From positions 1 through 64,000 of the forward strand of contig JAKQGX010000008.1 in assembly GCA_029573235.1 (NCBI GenBank): a stretch of 64,000 nucleotides of DNA, in the 5' to 3' direction. The position numbers were made by a program, and so were the translations under genes. Positions 3,943-57,773 of the stretch are shown one piece after another. Source of the DNA: Bacteroidota bacterium. GTDB lineage: Bacteria > Bacteroidota > Bacteroidia > Chitinophagales > Chitinophagaceae. Each line of letters begins with the position of its first letter. Positions within the stretch are counted from its first letter, which is position 1. The notes under the pieces are model-generated. The model saw only the letters and a list, made by a program, of their open reading frames with translations, was not told the DNA's origin and did no database searches.

Positions 3943-6900
3943 ATGCAATTTTTACTAAAAAAATGGATAGGGTATATTGCCTTGCTGTTTCCCTTTCTTA
4001 CACAGGCGCAGCAGGAGGAGCGGGTGCGTGCATATGGATACAGCGTGAACGAGGGCCTGCTGCAAACTACGATTACCGATGCTGCCTGTGATAGATACGA
4101 TCGGTTGTGGCTGTCATTTCCTAACGGTATTCAGCGGTTTAATGGTCTTTGTTTTGAAACAATATCTGTGCAAGAAGGGTTGCCAGATGATAAATTCATC
4201 CGTTTTTTTAAGACAGGGAACGAAAATTTCTTTATACTCCACAGCAAGGGCATCAGTAGGTATAATGAGGCTACTAACAAAATGGAACTCGTTTGCAAGG
4301 TGCACTTTGATCCGGTTATCCATCAAGTCAAAGTGTTGGGAGAATGGGATCAACAAATCTATCTTTCTGACAAAGAACGTTTTTATGTATTTGATACCCG
4401 AAGTTTCAGGATAAGCTCGGTAAGATTTCCTAATTTCTATAACGAAGCAATTCCAGATAGAAGTAGTAACAATATATACTCTAACATCAAGCAGGGTTTA
4501 ATTTTTATCCATAATACCAGCCGATGGGCTTTGATGTCTTTAGGTAATTTCAGTCTATTACGTTCAGGGGCTTTACCAGGGCATATCTCTGCCACGTGGA
4601 AGCCGTTTTTAAGAACGGATACAACAGTGCTGCTGGCAGATCCGTTTTCAAAATATCCATTGCGCATTTGGTCTCCTTTTAAAGAGTCTTTCGTTGGACA
4701 GGTTCTGCTTACCACTCCAAACCGTGAAAGTTTTTTAGCAAACTTGGGCGACTGGAAGGAAGATATGCTTTTACAAGTAAAAGATTCATTGCTTTTACTC
4801 AATGACAAAATGCAAGTGGTAAGAAAGTTGGTTAACCACAATTCCGTACCGGCAACTGAAGGGTTACATTTTCAAAAAATGATTACGGATCGTTGGGCAA
4901 ATCTTTATCTGATAAGCATTAATGATGGAATTACTATGATACCGGGGTATCGGTTACCGTTCCGTCATTTTCGTAACAAAGACCAACCCGGCAAGGATAA
5001 TATACTAAGTATTGCAGTAGATAAAACGACCGGCAGGGTAACAACCGCAGGAAGGTTGGGAATAGCGGTTTACGATACCAATCAACAACGATTATTCAGC
5101 CTTACAAAAATTACAACCGATAATAATATTTGCATTACACAGGTAGTCAATGCCCCGGATGGGGGGTATGTTTTTACCACCTTTGCACCATTTGCTATAT
5201 GGCAGTGCGATGCGTCCCTTAAGAACGTAAGGAAGTTGAAGGTGGTACCTTATACCCAAACTGAGCGTTTTCGCAGAAGATATTTTACCAAAACACTGTT
5301 GAATAATTCCAAAGAAGCCATCCTGGCTCAGGCGAATATGTTGATAAGAATAGATTGGAATACCCAAACTGCATCTTGCCACATATTTCCGAGGATAGGC
5401 TATACCATGTCGGCTCATTTACAAGACTCAATGATATGGATGCATGCGGAAGACAGCATGTATTTTATCAACAGCCGAAACAATAAAATATCTGAAGTCC
5501 GTTATTTTCCCCACACCGGCAATGTACGCTGCTACACAAGCCTTAAGAGTGGGCTTTCGGCTATGGGTACCAATAAAGGACTCTTTATTTTAGATAAACA
5601 GGGAGGTGTCAAATACCGGATAGATAAATCTAAAGGTTTGCCGGATGAGTGTGTTTATTCCGTACAAGAAGATGCGGAGGGTAATCTCTGGTATGGCAGC
5701 AATAAAGGAATATTGAAGATAAGCCATAAGGGCATCACGCAGTACACTAAAGAAGATGGCTTGCAGGAAAATGAATTTAACACTAATGTATCATTAGTTG
5801 CGCCCGATGGAGAGCTGTATTTTGGAGGTATTAACGGGGTGAACAGCTTTTATCCATCGGAGCTTATGGTAAACAAAGAAAACCCGGAATTAAGATTGCT
5901 GGGCGTTGAGGTAAATAACGAGCCAGCTTTTCTTGAAGAATCACTCATTGCTTTAGATAAAATTTCATTACCCTATAATAAGAACAGCCTCAGTTTTGCT
6001 TTCATTGCAAAGGGTAAAAGCCACTTGTCCCAATATGTTTACCAATACCGCATCAGCAAGTTGGAAGAGAAATGGCAAAGTTTTTTGCCGGGTCAAAGCC
6101 TGCGTTTTTTGCTGCCTCCCGGCACCTATGAACTTCAGGTAGCTGCCTCCCGTAATTTTCAACAGAGCCCCCGTCCGCTCAAGACAATAACAATAGAAAT
6201 TACTCCACCCTTTTGGCGCACTATATGGTTTCTTTCTCTATGCTTTCTGGGGTTTATCGGGGTCATTTTTTTTATAGCTAAGCAATATGTAAAACATCGT
6301 ATCTGGAAACAAAACGTAAAGCTGGAGGCAGAAAAAAAACTACAAACCGAAAAAGAACGCATAAGCCGTGACTTGCATGATAACATCGGAGCGTATGCTA
6401 ATGCCCTTCTATATGGAGCTGAACTTATAGAAACGGATGTGACGCCCATTCAACGTGAACATTATATCAGAGATATAAAATTCGCAGCTAAGGATATCGT
6501 TACCTCACTAAGAGAAACAGTTTGGGCTTTGCAACAGGACGCACATACTGCGGAAGAGATTTTTATAAGACTTAAAAGCTATATGCAATCATTGAGAGAT
6601 TACTATCCGAATATTAAATTTCAGTTATTGGGCAGCGCTCCTGCTGAACTGAGATTGCCAAGCCAAGCATCGCTCAATTTCATCAGGATTGGACAGGAGG
6701 CAATAACCAATGCCATAAAGCACAGCCAAGCTACTATCATTACCCTAAAAAGTGAAACAGAAGATAATGGATATTGGAGCATGACCATCGAGGACAACGG
6801 CATGGGATTCGATTGGGAAAATGTAAAAATGGGCAGCACTGGCAATGGGCTGAGCAACATACACTACCGTGCGCAGCAGTCTGCTATCCTTTTATTAATA

Positions 6901-48244: not shown

Positions 48245-50017
48245 ATGAAACATGTATTTCTTATCTCAAGTCTTTTGTTGTTTGCAGGTATTGTCCATGC
48301 ACAAAGTATAGACTGGGCGACTGCAATCGGTAGCAACTATACGGATCGTGCGCTCTCAGTCATCATCGATAATCAGGGCAACAAATATATTGGTGGTCAC
48401 TTCAATGATACGGTAGATTTTGACTTTGGTGCTGGTACGGCTATCAAAGCTTGTAAGCCCGATGCACTTGGCAGAGGTAATGCTTTTGTACTCAAGTTGG
48501 ATGCTTCCAATAATTTTGTAAAGGTGCTTACATTCGGTTATCCAACAGTGCCGCGCTATATTGGTGTTACTAGTATGAGCAAAGATGCTTCGGGCAATTT
48601 GTTTTTGTTAGGATACTTCAATACTAAGGTTGATTTCGACCCGGACACTGCACTAACACACGATATTGATCCAATAAATAACAACGAGATATTTTTAGTG
48701 AAGTTGGATGCCAATGAAAAATTTTTGTGGGCAAAGAATTGGGCTTATAATTACCCGGAAGGAGCTAATAATGGCGGGGATGAAGAAGGTCCGGCAATGA
48801 TGGTTATTGATGCATTGGGAAATATATGCCTGACAGGACGGTACAAAGGAACGGTAGATTTCGATCCCGGTTCCGGTAATAAAAAATTGACCTCTAACGG
48901 GCAATGGGGCTATGTACTGAAATTAGATAACAACGGAAATTTTCAATGGGCTAAAAATATTGCTACCGACACAGTTGTGGGAGATATTGTCGTTCCCCGC
49001 TCTATTGCTACAGACGCATCAGGTAATTTATACATTTCCGGAGATTTTTTTGGAACCGTTGATTTTAACCCCGATACTACCACAACCTATAATTTATCGG
49101 ACAGCGTGCAAAAGGCCTTTCTCTTAAAACTGGCTTCTGATGGTAGTTTTCAATGGGTGAAGAAGATAGGAGGCGAGGACAATAATCCCATCAGTTCATA
49201 TAATTATGCCAATGCTGTAGCTGTAGATGGTGCTTCGAATATATTATTGACGGGCAGTTTTATGGGTACGATAACGATGGGTGCTACTACTTTGGTGTCA
49301 AATGGTTATTCTGATATTTTCATAACAAAGTTGGATGCTTCGGGTAACTATTTGTGGGCAAAAAGTATAGGCAATACTTGGGATAGCGAACGTGCCACAC
49401 GATTGACGGTGGATGCAGCCAATAATATTTATATAGCGGGTACTTATAAAGGAGGGTTAGATTTTGACCCGGGTGCTTACGTGAAAAACATTACTTCTGA
49501 TGGTGCGTTGGATGCTTTCTTGTTAAAGCTCAACACCCATGGAATGTTTGCTTGGGCAAAAAGTTTTGGTGGTTCAGACAATTCCGAACGTATCTATAGT
49601 GTAGCTGCGAAAGATAACAGTGTATATGTAGTAGGTAGGTTCATGACCCAAATAAATTGTGATAATGATGGCAGCTATTATATCAACGCAGCCTATATTG
49701 GTTCTGGTACCCCGCGATATGATGGATGGATTGCCAAAGTCAATCAGGGAAATACTTCCATTGCCGATATCGCAAACAATCTCGAAGCGGCCATATATCC
49801 CAATCCCGCCTCTGAAGAAGTTGTAATTGATTTAACGGACTTTAATCAAACGAATATACAAGCTACAATTTTTGATATCGGAGGAAGAAAAGTACGCGAA
49901 CTTTTCATAGACAAGCCGATTACTAAAGTAGATATTCGCAATCTTCACAAAGGGCTATACATAATACAACTGAAAGGTGCTCAAACCCTGAACAGGATGA
50001 AACTATTAGTGAAGTAG
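48245..50017 (+). CDS. SBBP-repeat secreted protein with type IX secretion sorting domain
   Basis: The 590-residue protein has a signal peptide (ending GIVHAQ). A series of about seven to nine SBBP-type beta-propeller repeats follows (for example LFLLGYFNTKVDFDPDTALT, LYISGDFFGTVDFNPDTTTT). The C-terminus (about 510-590) is a T9SS type A sorting domain with AIYPNPASEEVVIDLTDF, IFDIGGRKVRELFI and LHKGLYIIQLKG. It should be exported across the outer membrane by T9SS and attached to the cell surface. It is co-transcribed with lipoprotein B. Confidence 0.9.
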   Translation: MKHVFLISSLLLFAGIVHAQSIDWATAIGSNYTDRALSVIIDNQGNKYIGGHFNDTVDFDFGAGTAIKACKPDALGRGNAFVLKLDASNNFVKVLTFGYPTVPRYIGVTSMSKDASGNLFLLGYFNTKVDFDPDTALTHDIDPINNNEIFLVKLDANEKFLWAKNWAYNYPEGANNGGDEEGPAMMVIDALGNICLTGRYKGTVDFDPGSGNKKLTSNGQWGYVLKLDNNGNFQWAKNIATDTVVGDIVVPRSIATDASGNLYISGDFFGTVDFNPDTTTTYNLSDSVQKAFLLKLASDGSFQWVKKIGGEDNNPISSYNYANAVAVDGASNILLTGSFMGTITMGATTLVSNGYSDIFITKLDASGNYLWAKSIGNTWDSERATRLTVDAANNIYIAGTYKGGLDFDPGAYVKNITSDGALDAFLLKLNTHGMFAWAKSFGGSDNSERIYSVAAKDNSVYVVGRFMTQINCDNDGSYYINAAYIGSGTPRYDGWIAKVNQGNTSIADIANNLEAAIYPNPASEEVVIDLTDFNQTNIQATIFDIGGRKVRELFIDKPITKVDIRNLHKGLYIIQLKGAQTLNRMKLLVK

Positions 50018-50185
50018 TATAAGCATTGCTTTCACAATCATAAAAATCATTTTTGAAAATTTGAATGACCTTCTGATGGGCAATGGTGTGTGACATTTTT
50101 TAAAGTTGAAGGTGCCAAACTTAAAGTGGGTGGTAATGGCAAGTAGCAGTTTTGTTTGAACAACGTATTGCTGGCTCAACTAATA

Positions 50186-51286
50186 CTATTGCTTTTTAAA
50201 TTCGACTCTTCTGTTGTTTGCTTTTCCCTCAGCTGTATTATTTGTATCAATGGGTCTTGATTCTCCAGCACCCTCTGTTACCAATCTTGATGGGTCGATT
50301 CCAAAGTTTTTTACAAGAAAGGACTTTACTGCTTCTGCCCGTTTCTGAGAGAGTGTTAGGTTGCTGGCATCACTACCATCACTATCCGTATGACCAATGA
50401 TTTTTATAGTGCCTTGAGAAGATTTTATTGCTTTTGCTGCTAGGTTTAGTGCTGGCCATGATTCCGGTCTAATAACCGAAGCGTTTGTATTGAAATATAT
50501 TGCATTTGTGACAAAATTATTTTTGTCATCAATTTTTGCCTCTACTGTTTCAACTTCTGCTACCTTAAAATTCGTGAAATACAACCCATCTCCCCACATA
50601 TTCGTTGCGAGTATAAACGTGTAGTTCGTTTTCATCGGCAAGCCATTGGGCAAGTCAAGAAACTTTTTCTCTCCTACATAAACTTTGATGTGCGTACCCA
50701 TTCTTGAAATAGATATTCTGTGTACTTTCCCTTTCTTCCAGCCATTCCTAATATCTTTCCTGTCTAGTATTCTTTCACCATCATAGTTTTCTTTTGTGGC
50801 AAGGCAATAAAGAAGTGCTTCTGACGGATGGATGTCAATCTGTATTTGCGGGTTTTCATCAAATGCTGTGCTGTATTCATTTTTATTCACTTTACTCCCT
50901 ACGATGGAAACAATTAAACCACTTTCCATTTCACTCATTTTTTCAGCATCAGCCCACATGTCAAATTCAATGGTGAAATTGTGAGGTAAGGTTTTTAGAT
51001 TAAGGGGATATAATATACCTCGTTTGGGTGTTTTGAGCCAATTGCCGGTGCTGGTTGCAATTTTTTTGATGCCGGGAGGGACTACATCATCTGATGGGTC
51101 ATGTTCAATGATTTTCCACTTGCTGAGTCCTGAAGAAAAATCGTCATAAAAGAACGTTTTAGTGCCGGCCACAAAATCAAAGTTGCTATAAGCTTTGTTC
51201 TCAGCGCTATTTATGTCATCATCTTGAGCATACAAAGACAGACTACCTATTGATACGATTATCAGTGTTAAAAACAATTTCAGCAT
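50186..51286 (-). CDS. OmpA-family protein with N-terminal concanavalin/LamG-like region
   Basis: From the ATG at 51286 (an ATG four codons earlier at 51298 is also in frame) the 366-residue protein has a signal peptide (ending SLSLYAQ). A beta-sandwich segment follows with FFYDDFSSGLSKWKIIEHD and FTIEFDMWADAEKMSEMESGLIVSIVG, which resembles a LamG/concanavalin fold. The C-terminal OmpA domain (about 250-366) has GTIKIIGHTDSDGSDASNLTLSQKRAE and NRRVEFKKQ. It likely links the outer membrane to peptidoglycan. It converges with the T9SS-sorted gene. Confidence 0.9.
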   Translation of the reverse strand: MLKLFLTLIIVSIGSLSLYAQDDDINSAENKAYSNFDFVAGTKTFFYDDFSSGLSKWKIIEHDPSDDVVPPGIKKIATSTGNWLKTPKRGILYPLNLKTLPHNFTIEFDMWADAEKMSEMESGLIVSIVGSKVNKNEYSTAFDENPQIQIDIHPSEALLYCLATKENYDGERILDRKDIRNGWKKGKVHRISISRMGTHIKVYVGEKKFLDLPNGLPMKTNYTFILATNMWGDGLYFTNFKVAEVETVEAKIDDKNNFVTNAIYFNTNASVIRPESWPALNLAAKAIKSSQGTIKIIGHTDSDGSDASNLTLSQKRAEAVKSFLVKNFGIDPSRLVTEGAGESRPIDTNNTAEGKANNRRVEFKKQ

Positions 51287-51578
51287 GTTTGATTGCATAG
51301 TGGTAAATGTTCTAAATAAAAAAATATGGGTTTCGGTACCACTTAAAGTACGGTACAGTTTTATTATGATTCAAAAAATACGCTTCAACAAATGTAGTGA
51401 ATGTTTTACCATACTTAGAGCTAAGATTCTCTTGGTATAAAGTTTTTGATATTGTTCAATAGGTGGAGTAATATGTCATTTGTTATAGTACAAAGCAAAG
51501 TGGAGAAGGTAGCTTTGGAAAGGAAGAATTGTATTGTTTTAACCGATTTTGCTGATAGCTAGCCTTTACTACTGCTGT

Positions 51579-52196
51579 TTATTTACCAATCAACACATGG
51601 TATTCCGTTGGGATTTTGACTCCTCTAAAATGATTGGTTAATCCAAAGAGTGTTATCAAGGTGATGCAAATACCCATCACTAGAATAATCTTTGATTGCT
51701 TTGCAGGGGATAATCCCAATACATTTAGTTTCATTTTTTTGTAATGAATTGTTGCAATGTGCCCAAAGAAAGAGATAATTGCAAATGTGTAATAAGGGAC
51801 AAAAAACAAGTTTGTTGGGAAACTATTCAATCCTGCTGCACCAAAGTAATAGTTAGTGTCTAGCAGCAAATAGAATCGCCCAACGAAAACAACGCCCACA
51901 TGAAAAATGATGAAAAAAACCAAGTAGCCTCCTGTCCATACTTGCTACTTGTCAATGGTATTCCATGCATTTCTTTTTCGGATAAGGATTTGTATAAAGC
52001 CAGACAATATTTTAACTGATAACGCAAGTAACAGTACAATTTCTACAAACATATTTCGATAGAAACGTCGTAATGTATTCATCAATGTAACATGCATTTC
52101 TACCCCAAAAACGCTAGATATATGATTGAATAAATGCATCCCAACAAAGGCAGTTACAATCATCCCTGAAATGAAATGTACCTTCTTAATACTCAT
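51579..52196 (-). pseudogene. Cytochrome-b/SdhC-like 5-helix membrane protein interrupted by an in-frame TAG
   Basis: Two segments lie in the same frame. The upstream one (52196-51945, 83 residues) contains HLFNH in helix 1. The downstream one (51923-51579, 114 residues) has IIFHVGVVF and FFGHIATIHYKK. Between them the TAG at 51945-51947 is followed by seven sense codons (QVWTGGY) and then LVFFIIFHV. Read through, the product is about 205 residues, with paired histidines of the kind that ligate b-type heme in succinate dehydrogenase-like anchors. No Met starts the second part (it begins at a TTG). It is the last gene of the OMP-DUF6326 operon. It could be a pseudogene, a readthrough case or a sequencing error. 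Confidence 0.75.
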
Positions 52197-52221
52197 GATA
52201 ACTATTGAATGATGACTTTAC

Positions 52222-52653
52222 TTAATGAGAGATATCCACTTTAACATGAGGCCATTTCCAAGCATAATATATAATTAGGGAAAGGAGCAATATTTCTACA
52301 GCCGCACCAAACACCATATGAACCCATGCCTCCCCAGCCAGATTAAACAGCATATAAGGAACATGAATGATAGCAGCCGTAATGTTTACGATTCGATTGA
52401 TCGTTGCTTGTAGCAGCACGGAAAGAAAAATCATAAGAATAGGTAATGTGGCTAATGCAAGGGCTGTAAATAGAAACCCTTGTGTAATGTCAAAAACAAA
52501 AACTTTCCCGTTTATGATATTTTCAATCTTGTGGGGCATGTACAATGCGAATACATCCACGTAGATATAGAGAAACATAAAACTTACCCAAAGTGCAGCA
52601 AGCTTCAGTTTTACATTGATGCTCACTTCTTCAAATCTCTTTTTTGAATGCAT
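52222..52653 (-). CDS. DUF6326-family four-helix membrane protein
   Basis: The 143-residue protein has four hydrophobic helices and begins like family members (KLKLAALWVSFMFLYIYVDVFALYMPHKIENI). The family has no known activity. It sits 25 nt upstream of the cytochrome-b-like gene and 3 nt after the outer-membrane protein gene, so it is the middle of an operon. Confidence 0.75.
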   Translation of the reverse strand: MHSKKRFEEVSINVKLKLAALWVSFMFLYIYVDVFALYMPHKIENIINGKVFVFDITQGFLFTALALATLPILMIFLSVLLQATINRIVNITAAIIHVPYMLFNLAGEAWVHMVFGAAVEILLLSLIIYYAWKWPHVKVDISH

Positions 52654-52656
52654 ATA

Positions 52657-53286
52657 CTAAAAGTTAATTCCAATATTAAGCCCCGGTTCAGGGAAGACAA
52701 ACTTTGACCATTTATCATCCAATTGTTTAAACCCATCCGGTAGCTCGGTGTGATAAGCACGGTGTGTCATACAAATAGATGGTTGAAAGAATATTTTGTC
52801 TTTAAAGAGTTTGAAGTGATAACCGATACGATACGAATTAAAAACCTGAAACCCATCATCAATTTTAGTACGATAATCATTCACGAAAATTTGATAGGTA
52901 GGCATTATATCCAGTTGTGCATAAAATTCCTTCCATAAAAAACGGGTGTATGATGCCGTAATGCCATATTCACGTACATATCCAGGGAATTTTTCATCCG
53001 CCTTTTTGTATGCGTTGTTTAGGAAAGGATGAATACCATTTGGCCAGGCGTATTTCCAAGTTTTGGGCGACAATGCAATAACATCTTTCCGCGTAATTCG
53101 GTACCCCAAGTTGAGTTCAAAAAATTGAGGTGGGTTCTTTGTATCCAAATTGCCCAATAAAACAAATAAGGATGTGCCAACGAACCATTGTTTGTATGTT
53201 TTTTCCTCTTTGGTATTTTGTGCATTCGCCTTAGTGCAGTTGGTCAATAGAAGCAAAAGCCCTATTCCAATAATCTTCTTTTGCAT
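52657..53286 (-). CDS. Small outer-membrane beta-barrel-like protein
   Basis: The 209-residue protein has a signal sequence (LLLLTNCTKANAQ), cleaved either as a lipoprotein at Cys17 or after ANAQ. The mature part has alternating-strand segments (PQFFELNLGYRITRKDVIAL, YGITASYTRFLWKEFYAQLDI) and ends in LNIGINF, as outer-membrane barrels do. No named family. It is the first gene of the operon with DUF6326 and the cytochrome-b-like gene, and a -7 box (53315-53322) is upstream. Confidence 0.7.
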   Translation of the reverse strand: MQKKIIGIGLLLLLTNCTKANAQNTKEEKTYKQWFVGTSLFVLLGNLDTKNPPQFFELNLGYRITRKDVIALSPKTWKYAWPNGIHPFLNNAYKKADEKFPGYVREYGITASYTRFLWKEFYAQLDIMPTYQIFVNDYRTKIDDGFQVFNSYRIGYHFKLFKDKIFFQPSICMTHRAYHTELPDGFKQLDDKWSKFVFPEPGLNIGINF

Positions 53287-53314
53287 GTTGTTTGTCAGAT
53301 ATTGTTTGATGATG

Positions 53315-53322
53315 CAAAAGTA
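53315..53322 (-). promoter_or_regulatory. -7 box of the outer-membrane protein/DUF6326/cytochrome-b-like operon
   Basis: TACTTTTG on the minus strand is an exact TAnnTTTG match, 28 nt before the ATG at 53286. Confidence 0.45.
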
Positions 53323-53369
53323 GATGGGCTGGTGCGCTACACTCGTTCACTTAAGTTAAGAAATATTCC

Positions 53370-53948
53370 TTATTGCTTTTTTTCAAGAATCCTTGCCCTT
53401 AGCCTACTTAAGGATTGAGGTTGGATGCCTAGATAATTGGCTAATTGGTGTTGTGGTACCCGCTGGATAAGGTCAGGTCTTCGTTGCAATAAATTCAGAT
53501 ATCGTTGTTCGGGTGATGAGGTTTTGAATAAATCAAAGTCTGTTTGTTGTATTGCCAACCGTTCTTCAGACAGCTTTCTGCAAAGGGTTTCAAACTTCGG
53601 AAACCTACCATTGATCTCGCTCTCCATATCTGCCCGTGAAATAATTAATATGCTATCCTCAACACAACTGATGTAATATTCTGATGGTGTATCGTTCATT
53701 ACACAGTGCGGTGTTAATCCTTCCATTTCTGTGTAAAAGGCGGTTGTTTTTTCTTCCCCTTCAATTATATAATAGGTGCGGATACAGCCCTTTAATACGA
53801 AGAAACTTTCTTTTGACTGTTGTCCTTCTTTGAGCAATGTGGTGCCTTTCTTTACGGTATGGATAATGTCTAAAGAAGTAATGGCATTCATCTCTTCTGT
53901 TGTCAGAGAAACGTACTTAGCCAAGAAGGTAAATAGAATGTCGTGCAT
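53370..53948 (-). CDS. Crp/Fnr-family transcriptional regulator (copy 1)
   Basis: The 192-residue protein has an N-terminal cyclic-nucleotide-binding-like fold (KKGTTLLKEGQQSKESFFVLKGCIRTYY). The C-terminal winged HTH (about 150-190) has LIQRVPQHQLANYLGIQPQSLSRLRARI. No cysteine cluster typical of Fnr is visible. The next gene (53286, same strand) is a probable target operon. A second regulator of this family is at 55306. Confidence 0.9.
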   Translation of the reverse strand: MHDILFTFLAKYVSLTTEEMNAITSLDIIHTVKKGTTLLKEGQQSKESFFVLKGCIRTYYIIEGEEKTTAFYTEMEGLTPHCVMNDTPSEYYISCVEDSILIISRADMESEINGRFPKFETLCRKLSEERLAIQQTDFDLFKTSSPEQRYLNLLQRRPDLIQRVPQHQLANYLGIQPQSLSRLRARILEKKQ

Positions 53949-54078
53949 GGTTCGATATGATGCGGTTGCAGGCGCAGCAATTACCTATTAGAAGATAGTA
54001 TTTGCAAGTGCATTTTATAGAATGTAAATATATCCAAAATTACACCTCAATTTCCCATAACAATATTTGTTCTTCACT

Positions 54079-55293
54079 TTAAGAAATCACCTTTTGCGCA
54101 AAGTGCTTGAGCTGTGTAAGCAGTAGGAATACGGCACTCAAAAAGAGTAATAGTGCCACAGCAAACAACATTTGATTGATATAGGGTATAGGTATATAAG
54201 CAAATGCTGCCATTCCTTGAACGCCCAATAGTAACTCGTTTAAGAATACGCCTACTAAAAATAGGATGGAAGCCGTTTTAGCTGAAGGAGTGGTAGCCAT
54301 CCAACCTTTGGCAAACAAAAATCCAATAAAGAATAAGCTGAACACACCTAATAATACCAAGTGTAAGTAGGCAATTACAATGGGACGGATACCAAATACC
54401 AATTGACTGAGAGAAGGAATGACTGAAATGGTTTGTAGTACAAATTTGATGGTCATAGCAAATGCAGCAGCGTAAAAAAAGATATTCACCCAAGTCGGAA
54501 AGTTAGTTTTATAGGTGCGTAAACACAGCAGTTTTTTTAACAACATAAACCACGCTACCATTTGAATAACCGTAAACAAAACCGTAATGATATAAAGCCA
54601 AGTGGGTAAATGTGTCCATAATATGGAGAGGAAAAATGTGGGAATTGCCGATGCTGCCAAGATGCGAAATTCATTCTTTATAGATGGAAAATCCTTGGGT
54701 AGCGCATGAACCACCAATGCCATTGCCCCAAAGAAAAACCAGCCACTGTATTGGAAGTGCAAGTAATAATACACCGATCCTAAGTAAAAATAGGAGTTAA
54801 CATTCTTGGTAATCATCGTATAGGCAAGCGATAGCGGGCCCGCAGAAGAAAGAATGTTTAGCAACAAAGCCGTAACAATCCATGGGGTTGCCAAATTGTT
54901 TGCAGGAAAATGCTTGATGTCCTTGATGTAAAACCACGCATAAACAATACCGATGATAATCGTAAGCCCGGAGAAAATAAAAGACCCCATGGCATAGCCC
55001 TGATACGTAAACGTAACCAACATGCCAAATGCCGCGACCAAATTGGCTATGATAATCGTATAGTATTTGGAAAGTTGCTTTTGAGTAAGGTGCTTAGATG
55101 CCATCCAAGTGAGGCAGGTGTAGAGCAAATGACTAATCCATCCATTGAACGCAAAATGTGAGTGTGCGTGTAATAAATTTTTCTGGTTTAAGTATGGGAA
55201 GTCGAAGGCTATCTTATAGCGCATTAGTGTTCCATAAAATGCTACAATAATGATACTGATAATTGCCAGGCGAAACCATTTATTTGTACTCAT
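54079..55293 (-). CDS. Heme-copper-oxidase-like 12-helix membrane protein
   Basis: The 404-residue protein has about 12 membrane helices with conserved histidines at positions like those of the COX1/NorB fold: LLHAHSHFAFNGWISH in helix 2, YYLHFQYSGWFFFGAM in the middle and AYLHLVLLGVFSLFF later. The HPEVY and paired-HH CuB motifs of true cytochrome oxidases are not visible, so it may be NO-related or a heme-containing relative without oxidase activity. It starts 12 nt after the stop of the Crp/Fnr gene at 55306, so the pair is an operon. Confidence 0.65.
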   Translation of the reverse strand: MSTNKWFRLAIISIIIVAFYGTLMRYKIAFDFPYLNQKNLLHAHSHFAFNGWISHLLYTCLTWMASKHLTQKQLSKYYTIIIANLVAAFGMLVTFTYQGYAMGSFIFSGLTIIIGIVYAWFYIKDIKHFPANNLATPWIVTALLLNILSSAGPLSLAYTMITKNVNSYFYLGSVYYYLHFQYSGWFFFGAMALVVHALPKDFPSIKNEFRILAASAIPTFFLSILWTHLPTWLYIITVLFTVIQMVAWFMLLKKLLCLRTYKTNFPTWVNIFFYAAAFAMTIKFVLQTISVIPSLSQLVFGIRPIVIAYLHLVLLGVFSLFFIGFLFAKGWMATTPSAKTASILFLVGVFLNELLLGVQGMAAFAYIPIPYINQMLFAVALLLFLSAVFLLLTQLKHFAQKVIS

Positions 55294-55305
55294 ACATTCA
55301 GAAGA

Positions 55306-55893
55306 TTAGTAGTAAATTTTATGATTGATGATGTTCAGCTTTTTCTCTTTATGCATTTTAATTAGGGTGCGAATGACCGTTTCTATGCGTAGTCCGGTGA
55401 ACTCTGCAATTTGCTTTCGGGTATAGGGTACTAGTTGTGGAGTTTCCTGATTATAACTTGGAGTGTTCTTTAAAAATTGAACGATCTTTTCCTCCGGAGT
55501 GGTGCTCACCCATATCTGCGCTGATTTAGACTTGTCGTAAATCCTTTTGGCAAAGGTAAACAGCATCTCTTGCGCAATCTCTGGATAGTCGCGGATAATA
55601 TCCAATAGACCTTCTCGAGCAATACGAATGATCGTACTTTCCTCTTTGGCTTTTGCCGAATTAGGATAGGGGAGTGACAGTAAAATAGGTGGTTCCCCAA
55701 AGCTATCTCCATTTTTAAAAATGCTTTGTGCAAGTGTCTTTCCCTCAGCATTGGAAGTATAAACTTTGATGGTGCCTTCCAACACTTGATAATAATAATT
55801 GGGAAGATCACCTTCATGAAATATCATTGCTTCTTTTTCGTATTTAATGGCATAGCCACCGTATGTAATCAGTATGTTATTATCAATTTGCAT
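55306..55893 (-). CDS. Crp/Fnr-family transcriptional regulator (copy 2)
   Basis: The 195-residue protein has a cNMP-binding fold (MIFHEGDLPNYYYQVLEGTIKVY, FGEPPILLSLPYPNSAKA) and a C-terminal HTH (about 155-190) with YTRKQIAEFTGLRIETVIRTLIKMHKE. The spacing of the binding domain and the lack of Fnr-type cysteines leave the effector open (cNMP, heme or redox). It is co-transcribed with the heme-copper-oxidase-like gene. Confidence 0.9.
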   Translation of the reverse strand: MQIDNNILITYGGYAIKYEKEAMIFHEGDLPNYYYQVLEGTIKVYTSNAEGKTLAQSIFKNGDSFGEPPILLSLPYPNSAKAKEESTIIRIAREGLLDIIRDYPEIAQEMLFTFAKRIYDKSKSAQIWVSTTPEEKIVQFLKNTPSYNQETPQLVPYTRKQIAEFTGLRIETVIRTLIKMHKEKKLNIINHKIYY

Positions 55894-56180
55894 GCTTTGT
55901 GGCTATCTACAAGAAGGCGAAAAATAATTTAGTAGCCATAAAATTAATACGGAAATACGAAACCGGTAATAATGCTATTCGCAACTAAACATAGTTTGCT
56001 ATTCGTACTTGCAAAGGTACTGACAGGCTGCATTACGCTAATATCATCCTTTCTGATTTTAAACAGCGTTCCATTTCTATCGCGCTGACATTCATCATGG
56101 GTGCATCGCATCACCCGATTGAAATAATCAAATACTACAATCACATGACAAGATGGAGCAATAATTTTGGTGAAAATGGC

Positions 56181-57773
56181 TTATGTCGTTGCCGTCTTAA
56201 ATTCGCTGGTGAAGTGAAATTCGATGTCGGGATTGTTTTGTCGCTCGGTATTTAAAAACCATTCGCTCTGTGCCAAATACACTAGGTTGCCATCTTTATC
56301 TTCCATGACATTCGATTGCTTGAAACGAACAAAATCTTCAACTTTCTTTTTATCTCCGGTTATCCAACAAGCTTTATAGAAGCTCAAAGGCATAAAGGCT
56401 ACCGAAGCACCATACTCTTGCAAGAGTCGGTATTGTATCACCTCAAACTGTAGTTCACCTACACAACCGATGATTTTTCTGTTGCCACCATGCTGGGTAA
56501 ACAATTGCGCAACCCCTTCATCGGTAAGCTGTCGAATGCCTTTTTCCAGTTGCTTTGTCTTCATGGGGTCTTTGTTGACCAACTCTTTAAAGATTTCCGG
56601 AGAGAAAGTAGGAATGCCTGTAAACTGTAACAATTCACCTTCGGTTAAGGTATCTCCAATTTTAAAATTGCCGGTGTCAAATAAGCCCACCACATCGCCC
56701 GGAAAGGCTTCTTCAATAATGTCTTTATCTCTGGCAAGGAAGGAATAAGGGTTACTGAAACGCACGTCTTTTTCTAATCTTGTGTGCTTATAATAGGTGT
56801 TGCGTTCAAACTTTCCGGAACATACTCTTAAAAAGGCGATACGGTCGCGATGGCGAGGGTCGAGGTTGGCATGTATTTTAAAAATAAATCCGGTAAACTT
56901 ATCTTCACTGACATCCACAAAACGCTTATCCGTTTGTCTTCCCAAAGGTTTGGGTGCAATGCTGATAAAGGTATCCAGCAATTCTTTCACCCCAAAATTA
57001 TTGACCGCACTGCCAAAAAACACAGGGGCAACTTCGCCCTTCAAATACTTGTCGGTATCCAGCACTCCATATACTCCTTCCAATAGCTCTACGTCTTCAC
57101 GCAGTTGTTTGGCATCGCGATCACCTACTTTTTTATCCAGTAACTCGTCATGGATGTCCGGAATGGGAAAGGTATTTTCAGTAGTTGCTTTTTGGTTGGC
57201 GGTAAACAGGTTTAGGCTTTTGTCATAAAGGTTGTACACTCCCTTAAACTCCTTTCCCATGTTGATGGGCCAAGTCAAGGGGTGTAAGGATAGTTTTAGT
57301 TCCTTTTCAATTTCGTCCAGCAAATCGAAAGGAAACTTTCCATCACGGTCCAGTTTGTTTACAAATACAATCACGGGCGTGTCGCGCATTCGGCACACTT
57401 CTACCAGCCTTCTGGTTTGCTCTTCCACCCCATTCACGCTATCTATCACTAATATGACGCTGTCCACCGCTGTTAATGTACGATAGGTGTCTTCTGCAAA
57501 GTCCTTGTGCCCGGGCGTATCCAGAAGATTAATCAAAGCCCCGTTATACTCAAAGCTCATTACAGATGTAGCCACCGAAATACCCCGCTGGCGCTCAATT
57601 TCCATAAAATCACTCGTGGCACTCTTCTTTATTTTATTGCTTTTCACGGCACCGGCTACTTGTATGGCACCGCCAAACAACAATAGCTTTTCGGTCAATG
57701 TAGTCTTACCGGCATCCGGGTGCGATATGATGGCAAAGGTTCGGCGCTTGTTAATTTCTTTATCGTATTTCAT
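56181..57773 (-). CDS. prfC: Peptide chain release factor 3
   Basis: The 530-residue GTPase has G1 PDAGKTTL, G3 [13 protein letters not shown]4 NKLDRDG, and RF3-specific segments: [20 protein letters not shown] and later [20 protein letters not shown]. It recycles RF1/RF2 after peptide release. It is transcribed alone. Position and length fit the family. Confidence 0.96.

Follow-up and report, generated by a model that had tools for sequence, protein, structure and literature searches.

Heme b binding has been shown for a protein with a DUF4405 domain, as reported in PMC11334425. Interrupted genes of the kind discussed below also have described counterparts. In-frame stop codons that persist briefly while under purifying selection have been reported to occur widely among bacteria, most of them, as the authors of that report assume, without functional recoding (PMC7918605). 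Many apparent bacterial pseudogenes have been described as assembly errors, internal stops tracking assembly quality (PMC11017572). The locus examined here, which encodes a b-type-cytochrome-like membrane protein and is cut by a single in-frame TAG, touches on both subjects. It lies in a stretch of 64,000 nucleotides (hereafter the window; contig JAKQGX010000008.1 of assembly GCA_029573235.1, positions 1 to 64,000 of the forward strand) from a member of the Chitinophagaceae (Bacteroidota). The source genome is a draft of 2.15 Mb in 43 contigs, 81% complete and probably metagenome-derived. We consider a recent nonsense mutation in a single, accessory and dispensable gene to be the probable explanation of the interruption. 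The features on which the discussion is based are:

51579–52196, minus strand: interrupted gene of 205 codons for a b-type-cytochrome-like membrane protein with five long predicted helices; frame open except for one TAG, homologues in Bacteroidota 48–60% identical, structural model with a pLDDT of 91.5
51945–52196, minus strand: upstream part, codons 1–83 plus the TAG, with the first helices and H7, H21, H25 and H35
51945–51947, minus strand: the in-frame TAG (codon 84), which in the model falls where the fourth predicted helix (residues 80–109) has its N-terminal end; a sense codon in the homologues
51579–51944, minus strand: downstream part, codons 85–205 plus the TAA, with the remaining helices and H99, H146 and H151; 48 of 51 conserved columns agree with the homologues
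52222–52653, minus strand: DUF6326 membrane protein, next gene upstream (PF19851, E 3.5e-15, 56.9 bits against a cut-off of 24)
52657–53286, minus strand: 209-residue protein with a signal-like N-terminus and no Pfam match; relatives in L077, L091, L097 and the sister locus L147
53370–53948, minus strand: Crp/Fnr-type regulator that opens the apparent operon (PF00027, E 3.8e-07)

A first-pass annotation of the window had proposed one cytochrome-b-like frame, cut once by TAG at 51945–51947. The sequence bears this out. Read on the minus strand, which the annotation did not give, the frame runs from 52196 to 51579, begins with ATG and consists of 83 codons, the TAG (51947–51945), 121 codons and a TAA, i.e., 205 codons plus the stop, and the read-through protein contains the motifs HLFNH, IFHVGVV and GHIATIHYKK. 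The start has indeed been kept, with the normal operon spacing that had been claimed, the ATG lying 25 bases past the end of the DUF6326 gene. Because a random stretch of 205 codons of the same base composition would contain at most one stop with a probability of only about 4e-5, and because homology extends over both halves, the interrupted frame cannot be put down to chance. In the genome as a whole the gene is single-copy and carries the same single TAG.

The annotation had also supposed that the two halves form one protein, and the homologues retrieved with the read-through protein, with the TAG read as X, agree with this. A search of 394 genomes of the family gave 24 other matches in 22 other genomes, three of them weak (L022, L023 and L024); of these three, the 22-copy alignment includes L023 but neither L022 nor L024. 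L024 is probably a chance match (E 8.8e-4, 29% identity over 103 residues, three stops). Codon 84 is a sense codon in all 22 aligned copies (L 11, I 5, V 2, W 2, M 1, A 1). While a scan of genome contigs with the window protein as a single sequence found no relatives, an alignment-based profile scan of named genomes found 211, of which the best-scoring 80 were examined; badly broken copies could rank below these. The best 80 of the 211 include representatives of Flavobacterium, Chryseobacterium, Pontibacter, Pedobacter, Runella, Aquimarina, Chitinophagaceae and Saprospiraceae. Each of the 80 has a sense codon at the position of codon 84 (L 73, I 3, V 2, M 1, and L in L125), 79 have an unbroken frame and none carries TAG at that position, the 22-copy and 80-copy counts overlapping, as several loci of the family set appear to be identical to named loci (e.g., L005/L061 and L007/L077). 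Internal stops were likewise absent from the 36 other matches in a draw of 396 genomes from the order and from the eight other matches in a draw of 395 genomes from the phylum, draws that overlap one another and the family draw. No relatives were found among viral contigs. Since the homologues are continuous across the TAG position, the interrupted frame is, judged from sequence comparison, one gene; two separate genes, the arrangement that the annotation had named as a refutation, were considered and rejected, none of the examined homologues being split at this point.

The one broken frame among the named homologues, that of Flavobacterium oncorhynchi (L125:5995–6603), has an in-frame TAA at 6484–6486, near window codon 166. 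Compared by eye with the window protein, it lacks the conserved histidines that correspond to window H25 and H35 and the conserved glycine G106. It is an independent broken copy, interrupted at a different place, and such losses seem to happen in this family.

The assignment of the protein as cytochrome-b-like, made in the first-pass annotation, is supported by weak profile matches among its relatives and by its predicted fold. Of the 80 aligned members (the best 80 of 211), all have H7, H99 and H146, and at least 90% have H21, H25, H35 and H151. The DUF4405 profile (PF14358) matches 77 of these 80 members and the prokaryotic cytochrome b561 profile 65 of them, both counted at E up to 1, with best values of 7.1e-07 and 8.4e-06, respectively. 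The window copy is absent from the DUF4405 and cytochrome b561 matches listed; its read-through protein matches no Pfam family at E up to 0.1, its first part reaches 10.6 bits against DUF4405 (cut-off 26.7), and two relatives scored singly also fell below the profile cut-offs. The model shows long helices at residues 3–30, 49–73, 80–109, 132–154 and 164–186, with short ones between. In a structural comparison the first nine rows were all cytochrome b subunits of complex II (quinol:fumarate reductase and succinate dehydrogenase; Z 12.8 to 7.7, 7–16% identity). The best two, 5xmj_C and 2bs4_C (Z 12.8 and 11.7), extend over nearly the whole model, the top one over 185 residues with an rmsd of 3.5, although helical bundles may reach such Z values by chance. 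Values below about 13 may reflect a common arrangement of helices, so that the match in fold is support and not proof. Foldseek returned no match for the model at E up to 0.001, and candidate relatives of known structure found by sequence were discarded as weak and unrelated-looking (E 0.7 or worse). Taken together, sequence profiles and model support a b-type-cytochrome-like protein that distantly resembles the DUF4405 and cytochrome b561 profiles and, by its fold, the cytochrome b of complex II. It would function as a b-type cytochrome that carries electrons inside the membrane and has its ligands encoded on either side of the TAG.

The effect of the TAG depends on how this organism reads it. 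The gene for release factor 1 (prfA) is present, with a score over the cut-off and no internal stop, and TAG terminates 16 of the 44 window frames of at least 150 codons; the codon is an ordinary stop here, and genome-wide recoding was rejected on these grounds. No tRNA with the anticodon CUA occurs among the 32 tRNAs found in the genome, which is 81% complete. In the same incomplete genome no match to pyrrolysyl-tRNA synthetase (PylS) was obtained with a loose search, which gave matches in 13 of 14 control genomes, only one of them over the cut-off, and which also catches other proteins. Nothing in these data would support recoding of TAG. A TAG flagged inside the release factor 2 gene (L028:1501–2637, G000:C5) as a possible second interruption proved to be that gene's own final stop. 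Its frame is continuous and lacks the programmed frameshift that is known from the release factor 2 genes of many bacteria.

Release factor 1 should, therefore, be expected to end translation at codon 84 in vivo, which would leave a piece of 83 residues containing no more than the first helices. Histidines of both parts are probably required for heme ligation, H21/H25 before the stop and H99 together with H146/H151 after it. Since the ligands probably lie on both sides of the TAG, the 83-residue piece should not work, and the gene would have lost its function.

If a suppressor tRNA or near-cognate decoding allowed some readthrough of the TAG, low amounts of full-length protein would be made instead. 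The sequence after the stop stays conserved, as this reading would have it, but the stop itself is not conserved: it is found in none of the 80 named loci (the best 80 of 211) and in none of the 36 order and eight phylum matches. The presence of release factor 1, the failure to find a CUA tRNA or PylS in the incomplete genome and the common use of TAG as a terminator also argue against readthrough, which we regard as improbable. A different fate, in which the gene became two co-assembling chains, the second starting at a TTG eight codons after the TAG, has two features in its favor. In the model the stop falls just past an inter-helix loop, at the start of helix 80–109, and an AGGAGG lies four bases before the in-frame TTG at 51923. 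However, none of the examined homologues is split at the TAG, the second chain would be without the first turns of its first helix, and of the 28 ATG starts placed mechanically in the window only one is preceded by an AGGAGG-type motif. Moreover, Bacteroidia ribosomes are reported not to recognize Shine-Dalgarno sites (PMC9976891; PMC6847099), which further weakens this explanation, and we give it hardly any credence. That the amber codon is retained for a purpose, be it leaky termination and a low dose of the full protein or two co-assembling chains with a TTG restart behind the AGGAGG, is accordingly a reading we hold to be very unlikely.

The age of the lesion can be approached from the conservation of the copy that carries it. 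Counted over the columns that are at least 90% conserved in the named homologues (79 full copies plus the short tail of L125, of which the residue at codon 84 was read directly), the window copy agrees in 22 of 24 upstream of the stop and in 48 of 51 downstream of it, a comparison in which the downstream part is made to look conserved, the 79 homologues having been fetched via motifs that lie after the stop, and in which the window copy has no close relative. Because the sequence after the TAG has not decayed, the stop would be recent, false or bypassed. The window copy is nevertheless somewhat unusual. It departs from the consensus at 5 of the 75 conserved columns, a number equalled or exceeded by three of 80 others, and it has 27 rare residues, a total that one other row reaches or surpasses. 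In a tree built from 86 copies, L125 not among them, its end branch is the third longest overall, the longest when only the part before the stop is considered and the ninth longest for the part after it. At column 62 it has K where 79 of 79 homologues have Q, and at column 69 it has Q where 78 of 79 have L. Four of the five deviations fall within the 12 of 75 columns at positions 62–102 (p 0.002), a clustering that, the region having been chosen post hoc, is only a hint. These departures hint at relaxed constraint on the window copy, but the excess of change appears to lie mainly before the stop, which truncation would not predict and which counts against a nonsense mutation.

The main rival to a nonsense mutation holds the real gene to be intact and attributes the TAG to an error of sequencing, assembly or strain consensus in the draft genome. 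The single lesion in an otherwise conserved frame is what such an error would produce, and a draft in 43 contigs that is 81% complete makes one conceivable. Such an error would, however, not explain the unusual residues and the long branch of the window copy. The window is also densely filled with open frames, with five gaps of more than 250 bases, all shorter than 300, which at most argues weakly against such an error. We therefore regard an error as possible but rather unlikely. Of the three explanations that the first-pass annotation had left side by side, recent inactivation is the best fit, an error in the reads or the assembly comes into consideration as its alternative, and readthrough finds no direct support.

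The nonsense mutation that we favor would have struck a gene that seems dispensable. The cytochrome-like gene was found in none of the six other genomes of the genus. One sister genome (G005) preserves the order regulator, 209-residue protein, DUF6326 but lacks it, an absence that is less firm given the fragmentation of this draft (530 contigs, 88% complete), and another (G002) has the regulator and DUF6326 without it. In the sister loci L135, L136 and L147 no remnant of the gene was detected (best tblastn E 3.5). As two sister species carry genes of the operon without the cytochrome-like gene, its loss appears to be tolerated; it has either been lost in the sisters or gained in the window species.

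The order of the apparent operon is Crp/Fnr-type regulator, 209-residue protein, which is probably an outer-membrane protein, DUF6326 and, in last position, the cytochrome-like gene. Since the interrupted gene comes last, the earlier genes need not be silenced by the lesion. The region 51000–53000 has a G+C content of about 0.355, against 0.408 for the window as a whole. The five neighbours scanned with Pfam comprised a Crp-like protein, DUF6326, OmpA and two without a match over the cut-off, no Rfam match over the gathering score was obtained in 49000–57000, and a search for papers on DUF6326 found none in the library used. Farther upstream, a 404-residue protein (54079–55293, minus strand) has many hydrophobic stretches, no Pfam match over the cut-off and no NCBIfam match; it adjoins a second Crp-like regulator (55306–55893) and has relatives in four of the six other genomes of the genus. 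A TGA flagged as another interruption, inside a second Crp-like gene of the genome, is that gene's own final stop.

Similar neighbourhoods occur elsewhere. In UBA7688 (L077) the same kinds of genes are found in a different order, and the locus of Thermoflexibacter ruber (L091) has counterparts of both the regulator and the 209-residue protein. Of the 80 best-scoring loci among the 211, 30 contain a relative of the regulator; some of these matches may be unrelated neighbours, Crp-like genes being numerous. In 18 of these best 80 of 211 (L067, L075, L089, L119 and 14 others) a Crp/Fnr-type regulator lies just upstream on the same strand. Gene order thus suggests a recurrent regulator–cytochrome pair.

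Single nonsense lesions are a common finding in accessory genes, and taken alone this case matters little. It does point to a widespread, poorly characterized family of cytochrome-like membrane proteins in Bacteroidota, encoded partly beside a Crp/Fnr-type regulator, the singly scored members of which fall below current Pfam cut-offs. If readthrough or a functional split were true, the locus would bear on how Bacteroidota handle in-frame stops.

Compared with described cytochromes, the window protein resembles the cytochrome b subunit of complex II (FrdC/SdhC), which provides the best structural matches over nearly the whole model, but identity is low, helix 49–73 of the window protein contains no histidine, and no flavoprotein or iron-sulfur partner was recognized among the five neighbours scanned. 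With the DUF4405 heme b cytochromes (PF14358), i.e., FezC and relatives as described in PMC11334425, it shares a small size, a multi-helix membrane fold and conserved histidines in the membrane helices, which may correspond to the DUF4405 ligands; it differs from them in lacking a listed profile match, and no apbE or ferrosome gene was recognized among the same five neighbours. As regards the stop codon, an in-frame TAG within a conserved frame is also what amber recoding or suppression (pyrrolysine, suppressor tRNA) presents, but here the incomplete genome yielded no such machinery, and the stop lacks conservation. Set beside other nonsense-interrupted alleles, the locus offers nothing beyond a single-lesion case, the truth of which hangs on the reads. 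With such bacterial pseudogene alleles it shares a single in-frame stop, in an accessory gene that is conserved in other respects and is intact or missing in relatives.
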